Source: Sphingomonas sp. (GTDB taxonomy: Bacteria; Pseudomonadota; Alphaproteobacteria; Sphingomonadales; Sphingomonadaceae). From it: a DNA stretch of 64,000 nucleotides. Below are positions 14,846-62,982 of this stretch, one piece after another; position 1 is the first letter of the stretch, and every line of letters begins with the position of its first letter. The notes beneath the pieces are model-generated. The model saw only the letters and a program-made list of their open reading frames with translations. It was not told the origin of the DNA and did not search any database. The stretch covers positions 1-64,000 of the forward strand of contig JAFKLY010000009.1 in the NCBI GenBank assembly GCA_017304655.1, written 5' to 3'. The translations under genes were made by a program, and so were the position numbers.

Positions 14846-14945
14846 CAGTCGCTCCCCACCCCATCCCGGACGTTTCGGCGAAGAAAGGGATTTGCCGGGC
14901 TCGGACATCGGTCCGCCGAGCCCTCCACGCCTCGCCCTCGCTTTT

Positions 14946-15158
14946 CCCTGTCCTACAGCCCATCCGCCATGGCAGCCCTGCCAGACGGTTTTTCCGTCCA
15001 AACCCGAGAGGTTCAGACATGGCTCTTTCTCATCTTCGGGCTGTCCCTCGTCCGGCCGGGCCGCGCAGGCTTGTCGGGTCGAGCTCTTGCATCCGCCGCT
15101 TCGGTCTATGCGGGGTACGGAAGTTCACGCCCCCGTGTCGTGAACTTCGTGAACTTCC
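14946..15158 (+). repeat. Copy A of a three-copy intergenic repeat (12-mer plus hairpin core)
   Basis: The element starts with CCCTGTCCTACA (14946-14957). After 160 bases comes the core at 15118-15158: a perfect hairpin GAAGTTCACG/CGTGAACTTC with loop CCCCCGTGT, then a second GTGAACTTC in direct repeat. Copies B (43104-43324, minus) and C (62671-62865, plus) have the same two parts in the same order and orientation. It fills the gap between the lipoprotein gene and the 3' end of cfa; no other feature is seen in 14846-15206. Confidence 0.85.
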
Positions 15159-15206
15159 AGCACCCGGCGCACTGTTGGATGGGCACGGTCGGACTGTCGA
15201 TTGGCC

Positions 15207-41485: not shown

Positions 41486-42925
41486 TCAGAACAGGCCGGG
41501 CGAATCCCGTTGTTCGGTCGTCGGGCGATCAGGCACCAACAGGCGCAGATCGCCCGCGACGGACTGTGCGCGCACTGCGCCGCTCGTGCTGCCAATGGGT
41601 GTGCAGCTGCGCCCGGCCAGATAATCGAGCGCCGTCTTGATCGATTGCTCCTGCGGATCGCCGAGCGCGTGGGTCACATCGTCGCTCGCCTGGCAGGTCG
41701 CCTCCATGAACGGGGCGAGGCCCTGATAATAGTCGCCGCGCCCGGCGGCATTCTTCACCGCAAAGGCAATGACGCGCAGCCGGTCGTCGCAAGCGGCAAG
41801 ATCAACCGCGATCTGGCCGACCGGCTTGCCGTAGCTATTGCCACCGATGAGCGCGACGTCCGCGTGCAGGAACGGCACCAGCGCGTTCATCACCAGTTCG
41901 CTGGCCGAGGCGGTGCCCTCGAAGCCGATGAAGGCGACGCGGCGTGGGCTGACCGAATCGGCCTGCGCCGTGAAATAGCGCGAGACATTCTCGGTCGCCG
42001 CTTTCTCCGGACGATAAGCGAGTTGATACATGAGGTCGGACGGTCGCCGATTGCCGCCGAGCAGATTGCTGAGCGTCTCCGCCACGGAGATCAGCCCGCC
42101 GCCATTATAGCGCAGGTCCACGATCACATCCGTGACGCCTTGCGCGCGGAAGCTGGCAAAGGCCTGCCGCAGCCCGGTGTCCGCCGCGTAGATGAAGGTG
42201 CGCAGGTTGACATAGCCAACCTTGCGCCCGCCATCGTCGATCACGCGCCAGCCATAGCGCGAGGAGACGGGCTGGAGATCATATTCGGCCTTGGTGAGCG
42301 TCACGTCACGGGTCGCGCCGGTGCCATCGCGCACGCGCAGCACCCGCGTCGTCCCGGCAACATTCGGCCCGAGCGCATCGGACAAACCACTGGCGCCGGA
42401 CGTCGCCATGATGTCACTCACCGAGCGCAGGCTGCCACTGCTCTGGCCGATAGCAAGGATCTCCGCCCCCCGGTCGATGCCGGCGGCCAGCGCCGGTGCG
42501 CCCTCGAAGGACTCCGAAATATAGGCACGCAGCGCTACCGCATCGGTCTTTACGCGAATGCCGAAGCCGCCCGTGCGCCCCGTGCTGTTATAGGCCTGCT
42601 CCGCCGCAATCGACGTGACATAGGTGAAGTAGCGATCCTTCCCCTGCGCCCGCGCCGTCGCGGTGAGCGCGTCGATATAGCCATCGAGCGAGGCGTAAGG
42701 CGCCGGATCGAGCGAGGCCGGCAGCGTCTCGGGGAACAGATACCATTCGCGCAGTTGCGCACCGGCCCAGTCCTGCCGGGCGCGCAGCGTGCAGGTCGTG
42801 TTGCCGGACGGGGTCGGCGTCGCCGTGCCGATGGTTCCCGCCGAGCCTGAGCCACCATCGCCGCCGCCACAGCCGGCCAGCAGCAGAGAGAGGCTGAGGA
42901 GGGCATGGCCGAGCGCGCGTTTCAT
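41486..42925 (-). CDS. S41 family C-terminal processing peptidase, lipoprotein
   Basis: About 479 aa. Signal peptide with lipobox LLAGC (Cys18 of the ATG-42925 form), then a low-complexity Gly/Ser/Thr linker, PDZ-like segment (residues 100-200) and the S41 core: VDLRYNGGG, FEGTASASELVMNAL (Ser nucleophile) and GGNSYGKPVGQ (Lys). So it is a Ser-Lys protease tethered to the outer or inner membrane. The in-frame TTG at 42946 is less likely than ATG at 42925, which has AGGAG. The Ser-Lys dyad is intact. The gene has repeat element B directly upstream. Confidence 0.9.
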   Translation of the reverse strand: MKRALGHALLSLSLLLAGCGGGDGGSGSAGTIGTATPTPSGNTTCTLRARQDWAGAQLREWYLFPETLPASLDPAPYASLDGYIDALTATARAQGKDRYFTYVTSIAAEQAYNSTGRTGGFGIRVKTDAVALRAYISESFEGAPALAAGIDRGAEILAIGQSSGSLRSVSDIMATSGASGLSDALGPNVAGTTRVLRVRDGTGATRDVTLTKAEYDLQPVSSRYGWRVIDDGGRKVGYVNLRTFIYAADTGLRQAFASFRAQGVTDVIVDLRYNGGGLISVAETLSNLLGGNRRPSDLMYQLAYRPEKAATENVSRYFTAQADSVSPRRVAFIGFEGTASASELVMNALVPFLHADVALIGGNSYGKPVGQIAVDLAACDDRLRVIAFAVKNAAGRGDYYQGLAPFMEATCQASDDVTHALGDPQEQSIKTALDYLAGRSCTPIGSTSGAVRAQSVAGDLRLLVPDRPTTEQRDSPGLF

Positions 42926-43103
42926 CCGCTCCTGCTTATTGCCCAACTATCTGTCTGTCAGGCGAGAATTGTGCGCCTGCCGCGTCGAGCAAGTGGCCCG
43001 CAGGTCCGCGGTGACAGGCCGCTGAAGCGGCGGCATATCGAGGGCGAGCGCGGCCGATGGCGAACGGCTCCGCCAGGCCCGTCCAACGGCACAGTGAGCG
43101 CTG

Positions 43104-43324
43104 AAAGTTCACGAAGTTCACGACACGGGGGCGTGAACTTCCGCTTCCCTGACCTTTCGCGGCAGCCAGATGAGGCGGGCACCGGAGTCTGTTCCGGGCT
43201 GCTCGTGCCGCCAAGTTCGTGCAGTGCCGCAGGGAGAAAAAGGCATGTGTCACCTGACCTCTCGCCTCTCGATGTGAGGAGGCGTTCGACAGGTCTGGCA
43301 CGGCGGACGGGGTGTAGGACAGGG
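43104..43324 (-). repeat. Copy B of the three-copy intergenic repeat
   Basis: In minus orientation: CCCTGTCCTACA at 43324-43313, then about 169 bases, then the hairpin core at 43143-43104, identical to copy A for 38 bases (GGAAGTTCACGCCCCCGTGT and onwards). It also shares GAAAGGTCAGGGAAGC just before the core with copy C. It lies 180 bases upstream of the S41 peptidase start, in the same orientation as that gene. The rest of the 650-base gap (42926-43575) holds a 28-base palindrome at 43443. Confidence 0.85.
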
Positions 43325-43442
43325 AAAAGGGAAATGTGCGTCGGCGGTGAGCGAGCGGATCATGCGCCTGTTTTCTGAGCGCGCCTTTCCTCGACGCAAT
43401 GTCACGAATCGGGTAGCGGGCTGACTTCGCGCAACTCTCCCT

Positions 43443-43470
43443 CGTCATTCCCGCGTGCGCGGGAATGACG
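43443..43470. repeat. REP-like 28-base palindrome
   Basis: CGTCATTCCCGC-GTGC-GCGGGAATGACG, perfect over 12 bp. The CATTCCCGC/GCGGGAATG pattern is the core of REP-type elements common in Proteobacteria. Only this copy is present here. It is near the 3' end of the SDR gene and may also serve as a transcript end. Confidence 0.7.
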
Positions 43471-55599: not shown

Positions 55600-55938
55600 A
55601 TGAGCAAGACCACGAGTCACATTCTCAATGCCGCGTCCAACCTGCTCGGCATCTCGGTGGTGCTCATTACCGGCCTCAAGGTAACCGGCCATGGCGAGCG
55701 AACGCTCGCGGACGAGATCGCCTGGATCGCCGCGCTCTGCTTCGCCCTCTCCTGCCTGCTGTCCTATCTCGACCTGCGCGCCGAACCCGACGACACGCCG
55801 CACGAACGCCACGCCGACTGGCTGTTCCTGCTCGGCCTGCTGGCGCTGATCGTCGCCGCCTTCGTGCTGGCGTTCAGCGATCTGAGCAAGGAAACGGCGG
55901 ACTTTCTGCAAGGCGTAAGCGTCAACACGGCAGGCTAG
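55600..55938 (+). CDS. Small membrane protein, unknown function
   Basis: 112 aa with three hydrophobic helices, at about residues 10-30, 39-58 and 75-95. No family recognised. Two in-frame ATGs are possible, at 55600 or 55573; neither has a strong Shine-Dalgarno. Divergent from typA with 147 bases between. No obvious regulatory motif. Confidence 0.6.
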   Translation: MSKTTSHILNAASNLLGISVVLITGLKVTGHGERTLADEIAWIAALCFALSCLLSYLDLRAEPDDTPHERHADWLFLLGLLALIVAAFVLAFSDLSKETADFLQGVSVNTAG

Positions 55939-56138
55939 ACGCGCGACAAGCGGTGTAAAGATGCCCCGTTCCCGGCATCAACTGCGCGCCAGCATTTGAA
56001 TGGACCAGAAGTTGGCATGCCCCTCGCTGGCCTTGGCCAAAGCACCGTACCGCGCAAAATCCTGTTCGAGATGTTGGCGATTTTTCAATTCTTTGGCGGG
56101 AAATGCACAATATTGCTCAACGCCTTTTGGAGTTTCGA

Positions 56139-57491
56139 ATGAAGAGCGTCCAAGTCATTGCTCTGTCCGCCCTTGGCGGAGTCGCGCTGGCGGGCGCGGC
56201 CCTCGGGGGGTACATGCTCAATCAACGGAGCAATGACGGCCCGCAGGCGCCTTCTTCGGCGGAGCAACCGGTTGCCGATCAATCGACCGAAGAAGCGCCA
56301 GCCGAGCTTGCCGGCGCCGCCTGGGTGCAGGGAGATTGCTCCAGTGGATCAAGCACATATGAATTTGAAAATGGCCGTACGATTGACTTCATGGGCTTCC
56401 CCGAAGCCGAACGCCGCGCCGTCCGATATCAGAAATATGAGAATGGCTGGAAAGTAATCAGGCCAGATGAAACGCACATTTATTCCTATCAAAACGGCAA
56501 TCTGAAGTTCGAGGGATTCGAAATCGCTGGCGAGCTGATCCGAACACCCCAATCGCCTGTGCTGAAACGCTGCCCCAAGGCGACCTTTGAAAAAATTGTC
56601 GACGTCCCGCCCGCGTCGATCAAGGAGCCGCTGCGTTACGCATTGTTCACGGCGATCACCATGAAGGATGCCCAAGCGGCAGAGCGCATCGTTGCGCGGA
56701 TGCCAAGCGTCGAAGGCGGGATCAACGCGGGCGGCGACCCGGACAAGAAGCCCGATATCGACACCATGTTGTCGACCGCCACGCGTGAAATCTATCTGAT
56801 CGTTCAAAAGAAACGGGGTAAATCGACCGGCAGCAAGCCCGAGGATTCCTATGCGTCAAATGGCACGCCGTGGCAGACCGTTTCGACCTTTCCTGAAATG
56901 ATTCAAGGCGAATTCATCGTTCCTGACCGGGTCGGGGGCTGCAGCAATCCGTTCATGACTATTCGGCCTTCATCCTTTTCTCGCAATGTTTTCGGGAAGA
57001 TTTTCGAGAACGAACCTGCACGGATCGCTGTTTCCGGCAACAGGGTCTGGATTGAACGAAAAACCGACGACGGGCGTTTCGACGGCGGAAATGTCTTGGA
57101 GATTCAACCGGATGGCTCTTTGGTCGAGATCGCAAATCTGACACCGTCAGGAGCACCTGTCCCGACCTCTGGGACTGTCCGCTATCTGCGCTGCTCAGCC
57201 CAGCCGGCTTCGGCCGATCGCGCGGCGTCCGCCGAGACCGGCGATCTGGCGAACGCCAAGGCAGCCTATGCCCGATCAACCGATGCGATTACCGCCGCGT
57301 GGCAAGCTCTTTCCCCGGAGAGGCGGCAGGCGCTCTTGCCGTCGCAAAGGGCCTGGATCCGGCAGAAAATGACAGACTGCAAAAATCTTGCCGCGCGCAC
57401 GCCCGGGGCTGCAGACCAGAAGGAAGCTGCAAGGCTCCAATGCGAGGTCGGCCTGGACAGGTTGCGCGTCCAGCAACTCAAGACCATCTAG
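56139..57491 (+). CDS. Exported protein with C-terminal LprI-like domain
   Basis: About 450 aa. An N-terminal signal or anchor (residues 1-28, VIALSALGGVALAGAALGGYML) precedes two repeated beta-rich regions, one with WVQGDCSSGSSTYEFENGR and another with GEFIVPDRVGGCSNPFMTIR. The last 90 residues (AWQALSPERRQALLPSQRAWI, then a Cys in TDCKNL and one near the end) match the lysozyme-inhibitor LprI/DUF1311 pattern. So an envelope protein that may bind lysozyme-like enzymes. The GC content is a little lower than in the flanks. ATG at 56139 follows GGAG; 56103 is an alternative start. A 200-base gap with no feature lies before it. Confidence 0.75.
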   Translation: MKSVQVIALSALGGVALAGAALGGYMLNQRSNDGPQAPSSAEQPVADQSTEEAPAELAGAAWVQGDCSSGSSTYEFENGRTIDFMGFPEAERRAVRYQKYENGWKVIRPDETHIYSYQNGNLKFEGFEIAGELIRTPQSPVLKRCPKATFEKIVDVPPASIKEPLRYALFTAITMKDAQAAERIVARMPSVEGGINAGGDPDKKPDIDTMLSTATREIYLIVQKKRGKSTGSKPEDSYASNGTPWQTVSTFPEMIQGEFIVPDRVGGCSNPFMTIRPSSFSRNVFGKIFENEPARIAVSGNRVWIERKTDDGRFDGGNVLEIQPDGSLVEIANLTPSGAPVPTSGTVRYLRCSAQPASADRAASAETGDLANAKAAYARSTDAITAAWQALSPERRQALLPSQRAWIRQKMTDCKNLAARTPGAADQKEAARLQCEVGLDRLRVQQLKTI

Positions 57492-57625
57492 CCTCGGCCC
57501 GGCACGCACCAGCAACCATAGCCGCACTGATCCGCTATCCCTTTCCTGCGGCTGTGGGCTGACCCCACCATAAAATTGTACCTGCGTCATTTGCCGTTCA
57601 CGCCGGCCGCGTTACAGTCTGGGCG

Positions 57626-58033
57626 ATGAGTGACGCGCACAGCATGATCGGGAGCCGTTGGCGGCAGGGACGGTTGTTCGTCCTGTCGCTGCTGCTCGCG
57701 CTGGCCAGTGCGCTCGTGCCGGCTCTGTGTTCTTCGGGTCCGCCGGCAAGCCGGGCGACCGGTTCCGCCTTCGATCCGACCACCAGTGTCGTCACCCTGC
57801 GCGGCCGGATGCAGGCGCTGGTGCAGGCGAACCCGGCTGATCGGATTGCGCCGACCCTCCCGGCCACAGGGCCGTTCACGCTCTTTCTCCTCAGCGCCGC
57901 GCCAGCCATCGGGCTCTCGGCGATCCTGCTGCTGTATCCGCTCGCCTGGCGGGCCGGGCAGGCTGCACCACGCCCCTGCCTGCGTCGCATTACGCGCGCC
58001 CGGCCCCGCGCGCCCCCGCACAGGGTGATCTAA
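57626..58033 (+). CDS. Putative two-helix membrane protein
   Basis: 135 aa with hydrophobic helices at about residues 18-35 and 82-108 and a basic C-terminal tail. Between them is a polar linker (FDPTTSVVTLRGRMQALVQANPAD). No family recognised. The minus strand carries an equally long open frame, so coding status is moderate; the hydrophobic pattern is the evidence for this strand. No good Shine-Dalgarno before the ATG. Followed on the same strand by the 37-aa gene and the antiporter. Confidence 0.45.
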   Translation: MSDAHSMIGSRWRQGRLFVLSLLLALASALVPALCSSGPPASRATGSAFDPTTSVVTLRGRMQALVQANPADRIAPTLPATGPFTLFLLSAAPAIGLSAILLLYPLAWRAGQAAPRPCLRRITRARPRAPPHRVI

Positions 58034-58094
58034 GGCCCGCGCGGCCTCCCCTTCGCATGTGACCATGGTCCCCTTTTTGCAGGGAGCCTGCAAA

Positions 58095-58208
58095 ATGATG
58101 AACCGGGAAGAACCCCGGCCACCCCGGTGGTTTGTGCTGGTCGTGTTCGGCGGCATCGGTGTCGCCGTCATCGTCCTTGGCCTGATCGTCGGCGGTTTCG
58201 CGCCATGA
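58095..58208 (+). CDS. 37-aa single-pass membrane protein
   Basis: Begins MMNREEPRPPRW and continues with one transmembrane helix of about 20 Val/Ile/Gly residues, ending GGFAP. Start ATG at 58095 follows AGGGAG with eight-base spacing, a strong ribosome site. It lies 98 bases upstream of the antiporter start on the same strand, so it may be co-transcribed. Function unknown. Confidence 0.6.
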   Translation: MMNREEPRPPRWFVLVVFGGIGVAVIVLGLIVGGFAP

Positions 58209-58305
58209 CCCGCGCGCCGCCATCCCGCTTGCGGTGATGGCGGCGCATCATGCGACTTCATTATTCAAGAGTTTCCAAGTCAGGAAAAGGAAGCACACCC
58301 GCCTG

Positions 58306-59961
58306 ATGCCCCATTACACCCCGCTCATCGCCACCATCGTCGCCGGCTTCACCGTCGCCTTCTTCATGGGCGCCATCGCCATGCGGCTGCGCGTCTCGCC
58401 GATTGCCGGCTATCTCATCGCCGGCGTGATCGTCGGCCCGTTCACCCCTGGCTTCGTCGCTGATTCCAATCTGGCCAATGAACTGGCCGAGATCGGCGTC
58501 ATCCTGCTGATGTTCGGCGTCGGCCTGCATTTCTCGCTCAAGGACCTGCTCGACGTCCGCAAGATCGCCGTGCCCGGCGCCATCGGCCAGATTGCCGCCG
58601 CGACGCTGCTTGGCATGGGTCTGGCCTGGGGCATGGGGTGGGACCCGCTCGCCGGCTTCGTGTTCGGTCTGGCGCTCTCGGTCGCCAGCACGGTGGTGCT
58701 GTTGCGCGCGCTGCAGGCGCGTGATCTGGTGCAGACCGAGCGTGGCCGCATTGCGGTGGGCTGGCTGATCGTCGAGGATCTGGTGATGGTGCTGGCGCTG
58801 GTGTTGCTGCCGGTGCTTGCCGGGATGTCGAAGAACCCGGCTGGAAGCAGCGCGGCGGCGATCGTCTGGCCGCTGGGGGTAACACTGATCAAGGTCGGCG
58901 GCTTCGTCGCCTTCATGCTCATCGTCGGCCGGCGCCTCATCCCCGCCGCCCTGCATTGGGTGGTGCACACCGGATCGCGCGAACTCTTCCGCCTCGCGGT
59001 GCTGGCCATCGCGCTCGGCGTGGCCGCAGGCTCGGCCTATATCTTCGACGTCTCCTTCGCGCTGGGCGCCTTCTTCGCCGGCATGATCCTAGGCGAGACG
59101 CCGCTCTCCCGTCGCGCGACCGAGGAGACGCTGCCGCTGCGCGATGCCTTCGCGGTGCTGTTTTTCGTCTCGGTTGGCATGCTGTTCGATCCCAGGGTCG
59201 TGATCGAGCAGCCCCTGCCCCTGCTGGCGACGGTGGCGATCATCATCCTCGGCAAGTCGATCGCGGCCTTCTTCATCGTGCGGGCGTTCGGCCACCAGAG
59301 CAAGACGGCGCTGACCATCGCGGCCAGCCTTGCCCAGATCGGCGAGTTCTCCTTCATCCTTGCCACGCTGGGAACGACGCTGGGCATTCTGCCCGCGGAC
59401 GCGCGCGATCTCATCCTGGCCGGTGCGATCTTCTCGATTTTCCTCAATCCGTTTCTCTTCTCCTACATCCTGCGCAACAACGGCAAGACGGCCGATGAGG
59501 AGGCAGACGAGGCAGCCGATCCCGCCCCGCCGGGGCCTGCCAGCCACGTTCTGCTGATCGGCTATGGTCGTGTCGGCAAGCGGCTAGCGGCCGGGCTCAG
59601 GGCAAACGGCGAAGCGCTGGTCCTCATCGAGGAGGATGAGGAAACCGCCGCCGCCGCCGCACGGGACGGGCATGAAGCAATCCACGGCAACGCCACGGAC
59701 AAGCGCGTTCTCAAAAGCGCCGGCATCGATCGGGCGACCAGCCTGCTCATCGCCATTCCCGAGGGCTTCGATGGCGGCGTGATTGCGGAGAAGGCGCGTA
59801 GTCTCCGGCCAGATATCCACCTCATCATCCGGGCGCATTCGGATGCGGAGGTTGCACATCTGCGCAAGCTCGACGTGGCGGATATTGTCATGGGCGAAGA
59901 TGAACTCGCTGCCAAAATGCTGAGTCTCGCCGTCCAGCCAGCTCCATCAGGCACAACATAG
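58306..59961 (+). CDS. ybaL: Monovalent cation:proton antiporter, YbaL-like (CPA2)
   Basis: 551 aa. Residues 1-385 are a 12- to 13-helix CPA2 exchanger; residues 405-540 are a cytoplasmic RCK/TrkA-N domain with dinucleotide loop LLIGYGRVGKRLA. YbaL-like features are GYLIAGVIVGPFTPGF, EIGVILLMFGVGLHFSLKDL and GWLIVEDLVMV. It probably exports K+ in exchange for H+ and may be gated by the RCK domain through a nucleotide or glutathione adduct. The ATG at 58306 fits the family start; 58234 adds 24 residues without family support. Confidence 0.92.
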   Translation: MPHYTPLIATIVAGFTVAFFMGAIAMRLRVSPIAGYLIAGVIVGPFTPGFVADSNLANELAEIGVILLMFGVGLHFSLKDLLDVRKIAVPGAIGQIAAATLLGMGLAWGMGWDPLAGFVFGLALSVASTVVLLRALQARDLVQTERGRIAVGWLIVEDLVMVLALVLLPVLAGMSKNPAGSSAAAIVWPLGVTLIKVGGFVAFMLIVGRRLIPAALHWVVHTGSRELFRLAVLAIALGVAAGSAYIFDVSFALGAFFAGMILGETPLSRRATEETLPLRDAFAVLFFVSVGMLFDPRVVIEQPLPLLATVAIIILGKSIAAFFIVRAFGHQSKTALTIAASLAQIGEFSFILATLGTTLGILPADARDLILAGAIFSIFLNPFLFSYILRNNGKTADEEADEAADPAPPGPASHVLLIGYGRVGKRLAAGLRANGEALVLIEEDEETAAAAARDGHEAIHGNATDKRVLKSAGIDRATSLLIAIPEGFDGGVIAEKARSLRPDIHLIIRAHSDAEVAHLRKLDVADIVMGEDELAAKMLSLAVQPAPSGTT

Positions 59962-60987: not shown

Positions 60988-62385
60988 TCAGTCGACGCGC
61001 GGCATCCGGTTCCAGGCGTCGAGCGCGGCGATCTTGTAGGCCTCCGCCAGCGTCGGGTAATTGAACGTGTTCTCGATGAAATAGTCGATCGTGCCCTTGA
61101 GGTTGAGCACCGCCTGGCCGATGTGGATCAGCTCCGTCGCGCCTTCGCCAAGGATGTGCACGCCCAGCAGCCGCCGGGTCTTGAGCGAGAAGATCATCTT
61201 CATCAGGCCGCTGTCCAGCCCCATGATGTGCCCGCGCGATGTCTCGCGGAAGCGCGCGATCCCGCACTCATAGGGGATCTTCTTCTCCTTCACGTCCTGC
61301 TCGCTCATGCCCACGGTCGAGATTTCCGGCACGGCATAGATGCCATAGGGGAAATAGGCGGGCGCGGGCGGCATGGGCAGGCCAAAGGCATGGCAGGCGG
61401 CGATGCGCCCCTGCTCCATCGAGGTGGAGGCAAGGCTGGGGAAGCCGATCACATCGCCGGCGGCGTAGATGTGCGGTACGTCGGTCTGGAAGGTCTTGGG
61501 ATCGACCTTAAGCCGCCCGCGATTGTCGACCTCCAGCCCGCAGCTTTCCAGCCCCAGATTCTTCGTCGCACCCACGCGACCGGCGGCGAACAGCAGCATG
61601 TCCGAGCGGATCGACCGCCCATCCTCCAGCGTCGTGATCACCCGTCCGCTCGCATCCTTGCCGATGCTCGTCACCTTGGCGCCGAGGCGGATGGTCATGC
61701 CGCGATCGCGCAGCTGATGGATGAACTCCTCGATGATCTCGCGATCGATGAAATCGAGGAAGGTCTCGCGCGGCTCGATCAGCGTCACCTGCACGTCGAG
61801 CGCGGAGAAGATCGTCGCATATTCGATGCCGATGACGCCGGCGCCGATCACCACCAGGCTGCGCGGCACGCGCGGCGCCTCGATCAGCACGTCGCTGTCG
61901 AGCACGATGTCGTCGTCGAATGGAATATAGTCCGGACGGAATGGCGCCGTGCCCACCGCGATCAGGAACCGCTCGCCCTTGACGAGCAGTTCGCTCTCGT
62001 CCGGCGCGGTGACGAGCACGGTATGCGCATCGACGAAGCGGGCGAACCCCTCCATCGTGCGCACGCCGTTGCGCTGGAACTGATGCTCCAGCACGTCCAC
62101 CTCATGCTCCAGCGTCTTGTTCAGCCGCTGGTCCAGATCCTGCCCGCCAATGTCCTTCTTCACGCGATAGGAACGGCCATAGAAGCCGCGCTCGCGCCAG
62201 CCCGTGAGATTGAGCACCGTCTCGCGCAGCGTCTTGGAGGGAATGGTGCCGGTGTGCACCGAGACGCCGCCGACCCGCCGACGCCCCTCGACGACCAGCA
62301 CGGACTTGCCCAGCTTGGCGGCCTGCACCGCGGCGCGGCGGCCCGCAGGCCCGCTGCCGATAACGACCAGATCGAACGTATCCAT
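60988..62385 (-). CDS. sthA: Soluble pyridine nucleotide transhydrogenase
   Basis: 465 aa, flavoprotein of the disulfide reductase superfamily. FAD loop VVIGSGPAGRRAAVQAAKLG at residues 6-25, then VHTGTIPSKTLRE, where the redox cysteine pair of relatives is absent, as in SthA; NAD loop VIGAGVIGIEYA near residue 180; IYAAGDVIGFP near residue 305. It interconverts NADPH and NADH. ATG at 62385 follows GGGGGGC; the in-frame start at 62478 adds His-rich residues that look unconserved. No relation to the neighbouring telA gene is evident. Confidence 0.94.
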   Translation of the reverse strand: MDTFDLVVIGSGPAGRRAAVQAAKLGKSVLVVEGRRRVGGVSVHTGTIPSKTLRETVLNLTGWRERGFYGRSYRVKKDIGGQDLDQRLNKTLEHEVDVLEHQFQRNGVRTMEGFARFVDAHTVLVTAPDESELLVKGERFLIAVGTAPFRPDYIPFDDDIVLDSDVLIEAPRVPRSLVVIGAGVIGIEYATIFSALDVQVTLIEPRETFLDFIDREIIEEFIHQLRDRGMTIRLGAKVTSIGKDASGRVITTLEDGRSIRSDMLLFAAGRVGATKNLGLESCGLEVDNRGRLKVDPKTFQTDVPHIYAAGDVIGFPSLASTSMEQGRIAACHAFGLPMPPAPAYFPYGIYAVPEISTVGMSEQDVKEKKIPYECGIARFRETSRGHIMGLDSGLMKMIFSLKTRRLLGVHILGEGATELIHIGQAVLNLKGTIDYFIENTFNYPTLAEAYKIAALDAWNRMPRVD

Positions 62386-62670
62386 GGCGCCCCCCGTTCC
62401 GTGCCGGGCCTCTTGCCCGTCCACGCGCCTCCCCAGGGACATCCTCTCGAAGTCATGATGGTGATGCATTTCCTGCACCTTTGCAATGCCCGCCCCAATG
62501 ACACCGGCCTAGCGGACAATGGCTAAGATTGGTTTACCTTGTGGAACTGAGGAGCGGGCTGCGCGGTCGCCATTGGGGGACATGCTGGACCTTCATCCAA
62601 ATGCGGGCCGTCGAGAGGCGACGCGAAAGCGATCGGCCCTCTCCTCACAGTCATTCCCCAAGCACCTACC

Positions 62671-62865
62671 CCCTGTCCTACACCGCGCCTTTCATGCCAA
62701 CCTCATCGGATGCCCCCTTTCCCCCTCCAGCGTCGACACGCACGGCATGGTTCAGTTCCATCGAGGACGGCGACGCTCCGCTCGGGTGCCCGCGTCACCA
62801 GCGGCCTGCGAAAGATCAGGGAAGCGGAAGTTCATGCCCCCGTATCGTGAACTTCGTGAACTTCC
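62671..62865 (+). repeat. Copy C of the three-copy intergenic repeat
   Basis: CCCTGTCCTACA (62671-62682), then 142 bases, then the core at 62825-62865. Its hairpin differs from copies A and B by a C-to-T change, which leaves a G-T wobble in the stem, and one change in the loop. Similarity to copy B extends upstream for over 15 bases (GAAAGATCAGGGAAGC). It lies 157 bases before the telA start, in the same orientation as telA. Confidence 0.85.
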
Positions 62866-62982
62866 GGCGCGCCGCGCGCTGCTCGAGCGGGGTCGCGCCG
62901 CCGTCGCTTCGCCCGCTCGCCGTCCGATCCGCATTGGCAGTGGTCTTCACCGCGCCTATACAATTTCAGCCCTTGCAGCCTT

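Follow-up and report, generated by a model that had tools for sequence, protein, structure and literature searches.

The three repeats in the window, by which we mean the whole 64-kb stretch of DNA that was analysed, are copies of a non-coding cassette of about 250 bases that occurs about 50 times in the host genome. The host is a relative of Sphingobium in the GTDB classification, with a genome of 3.58 Mb. The cassette is apparently undescribed: no published description of the repeat was found in the literature searched, which took in only a minority of subscription papers, and Rfam gave no gathering match in the window and only chance-level matches in five copy-bearing loci and ten loci of relatives. 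Our preferred reading, which we hold tentatively, is that the cassettes may be short non-coding transcription units that have proliferated as a family, each comprising a promoter-type module, a block resembling boxA and a hairpin at the 3' end. The first-pass annotation had described a non-coding family with two linked modules, and each sequence that it listed was found in its place in all three copies of the window:

Copy A, cassette: 14940..15182, plus strand
Copy A, 5' module CTGTCCTACA-N11-ATGGCA: 14948..14974, plus strand
Copy A, 12-mer CCCTGTCCTACA: 14946-14957, plus strand
Copy A, boxA-like block GCTCTTTCTC: 15022..15031, plus strand
Copy A, core hairpin (GGAAGTTCACG ... CGTGAACTTC) with second repeat GTGAACTTCC: 15119..15158, plus strand
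Copy A, core hairpin alone: 15120-15148, plus strand, second GTGAACTTC directly after
Copy A, 3' block TGTTGGA: 15173..15179, plus strand
Copy B, cassette: 43079..43330, minus strand, upstream of the peptidase S41 gene (41486-42925, minus strand)
Copy B, 5' module CTGTCCTACA-N11-GTGCCA: 43296..43322, minus strand
Copy B, 12-mer CCCTGTCCTACA: 43313-43324, minus strand
Copy B, core hairpin with second repeat GTGAACTTTC: 43103..43142, minus strand
Copy B, core hairpin alone: 43113-43141, minus strand, second GTGAACTTC directly after
Copy B, 3' block CGTTGGA: 43082..43088, minus strand
Copy C, cassette: 62665..62889, plus strand, between the sthA-like gene (60988-62385, minus strand) and telA (63022-, plus strand)
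Copy C, 5' module CTGTCCTACA-N11-ATGCCA: 62673..62699, plus strand
Copy C, 12-mer CCCTGTCCTACA: 62671-62682, plus strand
Copy C, core hairpin (with a G-T wobble) and second repeat GTGAACTTCC: 62826..62865, plus strand
Copy C, core hairpin alone: 62827-62855, plus strand, second GTGAACTTC directly after

A search of the 3.58-Mb genome for the core hairpin GAAGTTCAYGCCCCCGTRTCGTGAACTTC with up to three mismatches recovered 46 copies, against none for the reversed pattern used as a control, and 100 shuffles of the 64-kb window contained no match to the core; chance is therefore excluded. TGTCCTACA lies upstream of every one of these cores, at 99-197 bases and mostly at 180-190, and the two modules are therefore linked. 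Such a genome-wide search for further copies and for linkage was the test on which the first-pass annotation had staked its proposal, and the family turned out to be larger than the three members it knew, with about 50 copies here and relatives across the order. The exact 12-mer CCCTGTCCTACA occurs at 21 sites in the genome, at least 19 of which belong to a cassette, as judged by a core beside them or, for L048, L049 and L050, by the whole-element profile. Searching with the 5' pattern alone gave 51 matches, approximately the number of core copies, so that intact modules are the rule; 45 distinct 5' sites fall inside the 50 fetched loci.

The consensus cassette opens with TTTTCC and CTGTCCTACA-N11-ATGGCA, continues through a variable hairpin region, a GGCTCTTTCTCA block and a variable region, and closes with GGAAGCG-GAAGTTCACG-loop-CGTGAACTTC-GTGAACTTCC followed by TGTTGGA, a third block that in almost every copy sits 24 bases past the core hairpin and is absent from other cassette subtypes. 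Compared in pairs, 32 full-length copies differ on average by 0.02 in the 5' 10-mer, 0.05 in the core hairpin and 0.06 in TGTTGGA, against 0.40-0.46 per site in the middle region, with the qualification that these copies were gathered via their core, a possible bias in the figures for module conservation. Dispersed bacterial repeats usually decay once they have spread; here both ends are near-invariant in almost every copy and the middle is drifting. Such a pattern points to ongoing selection on most copies. The cassettes are probably functional sites, and not decaying junk, because a front tag that is constant across the order is combined with a hairpin that varies between species and keeps its base pairing.

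Maintenance of the core stem, as had been proposed from the wobble in copy C, is borne out by covariation both between species and between copies. Across 31 distinct cores, pairing is present in 92.3% of stem cells, and the covariation score is 0.250 compared with 0.132 for shuffled data (0 of 500 shuffles scored as high); sliding the partner lowers it to 0.03-0.10. Most of this signal comes from two pairs (UA14/AU13/GC3/UG1 and GC16/CG13/AU1/GU1), and helix covariation of the kind sought in structured RNAs was found for the core stem only. Where only one side of an inner-stem pair has changed (nine pairs, columns 9-17 with 29-37), the plus strand shows 46 G.T and 6 A.C cells, many of the wobble cells tracing to one or two inherited changes and hence to few independent events; this wobble excess fits, and suggests, a hairpin in a plus-strand RNA. 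Folds of the whole element were weakly more stable than those of shuffled sequences (mean z of -0.9 in this genome and -1.45 in SYK-6), and the plus strand had no stability advantage over the minus strand. The stem in Sphingobium sp. SYK-6 (G204) and its sister genome G448 is GAAGATGAC/GTCATCTTT, with GATGAG/CTCATC or GTTGAC/GTCAAC in some copies, while one copy in this genome has GTTGAT/ATCAAC and one in S. nicotianae has GGTGAC/GTCACC.

The exact core was absent from the 398 genomes of the family that were searched. DNA and profile searches found diverged relatives, and the notion of a cassette unique to this genome was rejected; the null result therefore means only that this particular core had changed. 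SYK-6 and G448 have at least 22 scored cassette copies each, and SYK-6 and related Sphingobium genomes carry the same cassette with other stem sequences in which the changes are paired. The 5' module, as CTGTCCTACA-N11-(A/G)TGSCA, was found in 51 of 94 congeners (the reversed control gave 2 matches in all): S. xanthum (G028) has 52 matches, S. nicotianae (G466) 34 and SYK-6 29, and most others have 1-5; in named genomes its matches are mainly in Sphingomonadales, over a chance background in other phyla. Judged from these matches, the 5' module is conserved far more widely than the core. The 3' part depends on the lineage and by inspection is usually a tandem repeat of about 9 bases with an inverted partner (for example, CTCCACTTC twice, CTCAACTTT/CTCAACATT, CTGCACTTC/GTGCACTTC or GTAACCTTC twice), and orthologous loci bear each genome's own 3' type.

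Several observations on the wider family stand apart from this argument. A second cassette subtype, at L187, L191, L193 and L205 (S. nicotianae) and at L240 and L241 (S. xanthum), has CATGCGYGATATG followed by GCGATGTTCGTGATGTTTCGC-like tandem repeats, with GCTCTTTGA replacing GCTCTTTCTC in most. In the collinear genomes of SYK-6 and G448, a region of 1.27 Mb (approximately 0.31-1.58 Mb) has one 5' module or none, and the rest has 22-28. Upstream of copy B, positions 43442-43468 of the window hold a perfect palindrome, GTCATTCCCGCG(TG)CGCGGGAATGAC; similar matches of about 30 bases occur in many congeners, so that it looks like a widespread GTCATTCCCGCG intergenic palindrome. Three other origins of the cassette were considered and rejected. 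VTFVNF-like readings of the tandem 9-mers (e.g., at L164) run into stops in other copies, which speaks against a coding origin. Collections of phages and plasmids contained no match to the cassette, and the nine module matches in viral contigs were no excess over chance. The cassette ends resemble the GTTRRRY of integron attC sites, but on inspection the length and the dispersed layout do not fit.

The 5' module also occurs alone. At 16 loci from several genera it separates an XRE gene from a divergently oriented DUF6456 gene, its internal spacing unchanged; there it follows the palindrome AACC-N5-GGTT, and the mapped DUF6456 starts lie about 54-70 bases past CTGTCC. This arrangement suggests that the 5' module may be a promoter or activator site; AACC-N5-GGTT is a probable operator, and the XRE protein is putatively RogA-like by domain layout and position. 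A GafA search returns DUF6456 matches (PMC9638019). In Caulobacter, the HTH/S24-like repressor RogA controls gafYZ (PMC9632790), GafY together with IHF activates GafY's own promoter and about 18 others, and GafYZ supports anti-termination (PMC11150451). Loci of the XRE/DUF6456 type with CTGTCCTACA-N11-ATGGCAA are spread across Sphingomonadales (L173-L175, L180, L203, L207, L209 and others). Separately, at L167, L182 and L211 an HTH protein (ARRxRGWTxDxQ...SRCGVVAQAARSVGC) starts about 38 bases after the module; the protein has no Pfam match, and its gene is followed by a DUF885-like gene.

Between its modules the cassette has a pyrimidine block, found on the plus strand only and at a narrow range of distances; most subtypes have GCTCTTTCTC here, some GCTCTTTGA(C). 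The boxA consensus of gamma-proteobacteria is GYTCTTTAANA, and boxA acts beyond rRNA (PMC5725501). As a reference we took the boxA of rRNA operons on Sphingomonadaceae megaplasmids, which is GGTTCTTTGACATTGT or CGCTCTTTGACATTGT. The block matches rrn boxA (GYTCTTTGACATTGT) over 14 bases in one relative (L235) and over 9-11 in five others; in the window family it is GCTCTTTCTCA, not GCTCTTTGACA, is degenerate in copies B and C, and may best be called a resemblance. BoxA (NusB/S10) antitermination leaders, as in rrn, suhB and CRISPR leaders, likewise have a GYTCTTT... pyrimidine block in an untranslated region, but most cassette copies are only boxA-like, and neither the copy number nor the 3' hairpin has a counterpart in those leaders.

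Other known systems are also similar in part. The multicopy cuckoo/CcsR-type sRNA families of Alphaproteobacteria also consist of related non-coding units, several to a genome, that have a motif in common, but the cassette lacks CCUCCUCCC loops and an Rfam match and reaches about 50 copies. REP/REPIN sequences with their RAYTs resemble it in being dozens of dispersed intergenic palindromes with a genome-specific stem and a bias to the 3' ends of genes. REPs are defined, however, as short (20-40 nt) palindromes headed by GTAG/GTGG (PMC2817692); the cassette is a much longer, bipartite unit of about 250 nt with an invariant distal module, and its core is preceded by GGAAGCG in place of a GTAG/GTGG-type head. 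A Y1 transposase (PF01797, RAYT type) was found in none of four cassette-carrying genomes (G000, SYK-6, G448 and S. nicotianae) by a search that detected its control; S. xanthum has one. REP/RAYT membership was rejected on these two grounds of transposase and anatomy.

The positions of the copies bear on two proposals of the first-pass annotation, a conserved leader RNA and a mobile element. Neighboring genes were called with a 3-periodic Markov caller trained on this DNA (within the window, a 2.4-kb stretch at 55938-58306 has no called gene yet holds a 462-aa open frame from about 56103 on the plus strand, probably a caller miss). Most copies are intergenic, downstream of genes and at lineage-specific positions. 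Copy B (S41 peptidase gene) and copy C (telA) do precede the start codon of a gene that runs in their own direction, but copy A and most of the approximately 50 copies are placed otherwise. A cis-acting leader would hold a fixed place before co-directional genes, but in this genome the 3' neighbor points at the cassette in 35 of 50 copies and the adjacent genes have no common function, which refutes a conserved leader RNA as the general role. It could apply at single loci: in low-copy genomes the cassette is more often upstream of a gene (e.g., ABC-F, lpdA, alaS, parC, uvrC), and ABC-F (at 255-257 bases in most of six species), lpdA, alaS, parC and telA are co-directional and downstream. As an account of the family we consider it very improbable. 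Mobility fared somewhat better, as dispersal and lineage-specific positions fit proliferation, but the empty sites compared did not show clean insertions, target-site duplications were not seen, and no Y1 transposase was found in four of five carriers. The corresponding alternative, which we regard as doubtful, is that the cassettes are MITE-like non-autonomous mobile DNA with no host role, the 5' module and the core/TGTTGGA end serving as sites for a trans-acting transposase. The about 50 dispersed, non-coding, intergenic copies are indeed of the kind seen in MITE-like repeats of 100-250 bp (ERIC/RU-1, Correia, RUP). Both flanks are shared with this genome at 0 of 22 SYK-6 loci and at 2 of 20 S. 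nicotianae loci, one of them being that of window copy C (sthA-like/telA). By contrast, SYK-6 loci were matched by 10 of the 12 G448 loci that were sampled. Among 42 copies with both neighbors called, 21 are in convergent, 18 in tandem and 3 in divergent intervals; against an expectation of a quarter each, convergent intervals are enriched (p 0.0005) and divergent ones depleted (p 0.006). The ends TGTCCTACA and TGTTGGA are partly, if imperfectly, complementary, though the other subtypes have no TGTTGGA, and copies are absent from one of two close relatives: two SYK-6 copies are missing at syntenic G448 loci (a difference of 440-470 bp versus about 60 bp). Neither of these empty sites has the clean insertion and target-site duplication of a MITE, however, and a parent transposon was not found. 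Furthermore, dead copies decaying neutrally would not keep near-perfect modules around a middle that has diverged by 40%, and the order-wide 5' module stands alone at regulator promoters.

It is also conceivable, but we think it unlikely, that the cassettes are paired DNA sites for host proteins: a regulator would bind CTGTCCTACA-N11-ATGSCA, a rapidly evolving factor would bind the palindrome and direct repeat, and the sites would act in gene control or chromosome organisation. Short palindromic blocks are strongly conserved, a dimeric protein that changes its specificity would also yield paired changes, the 5' module adjoins the probable operator at the XRE/DUF6456 pair, and fold energy has no strand asymmetry. 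All half-sites would then be expected to change, but the second direct repeat in SYK-6 does not track the stem (GTCATCTTT is followed by GTAAACTTC; GTAAACTTCC), its CTTCC pairing instead with an upstream GGAAG. The G.T wobble bias and a pyrimidine block restricted to the plus strand also argue against protein sites.

The reading as small transcription units would account for these features as follows. A cassette of about 250 bases may have multiplied in this Sphingobium clade, with other forms across Sphingomonadales, and each copy would be transcribed as a small unit, as we infer, from CTGTCCTACA-N11-ATGSCA, the promoter or activator site that would also serve the DUF6456 (GafA/GafZ-type) gene. 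The untranslated RNA would carry the boxA-like block GCTCTTTCTCA, which may recruit Nus factors against Rho termination, and would end in the hairpin that is kept by paired base changes. Support comes from the 46 linked copies with near-invariant modules, the covariation, the G.T bias, the 5' module at DUF6456 promoters and the block confined to one strand. Support also comes from 11 copies at which both neighbors run in the minus direction relative to the cassette; a plus-strand RNA there would therefore need its own promoter, for which the 5' module is the only candidate. The weak z-scores and lack of strand preference of the folds, the missing Rfam match, a boxA-like block that is degenerate or unlike that of rrn, and the few independent wobble events count against such units, as do the absence of a U-run terminator from the cassette and a 5' module that does not resemble a known sigma-70 promoter.

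Through its 5' module, a non-coding family with many copies is connected with the promoter of a GafA/GafZ-type regulator; in other Alphaproteobacteria, regulators of this class turn on gene transfer agents. A bolder proposal, to which we give only a small chance, is that the cassettes are order-wide transcription units that have a promoter-type module in common with the gene for this gene-transfer-agent regulator, and a 3' hairpin that changes in step in the dozens of scattered copies of each species, implying a co-evolving trans-acting partner. If the near-constant ends and the compensated hairpin changes are confirmed, the cassettes would preserve a legible history of how dozens of genomic sites co-evolved with a single partner.
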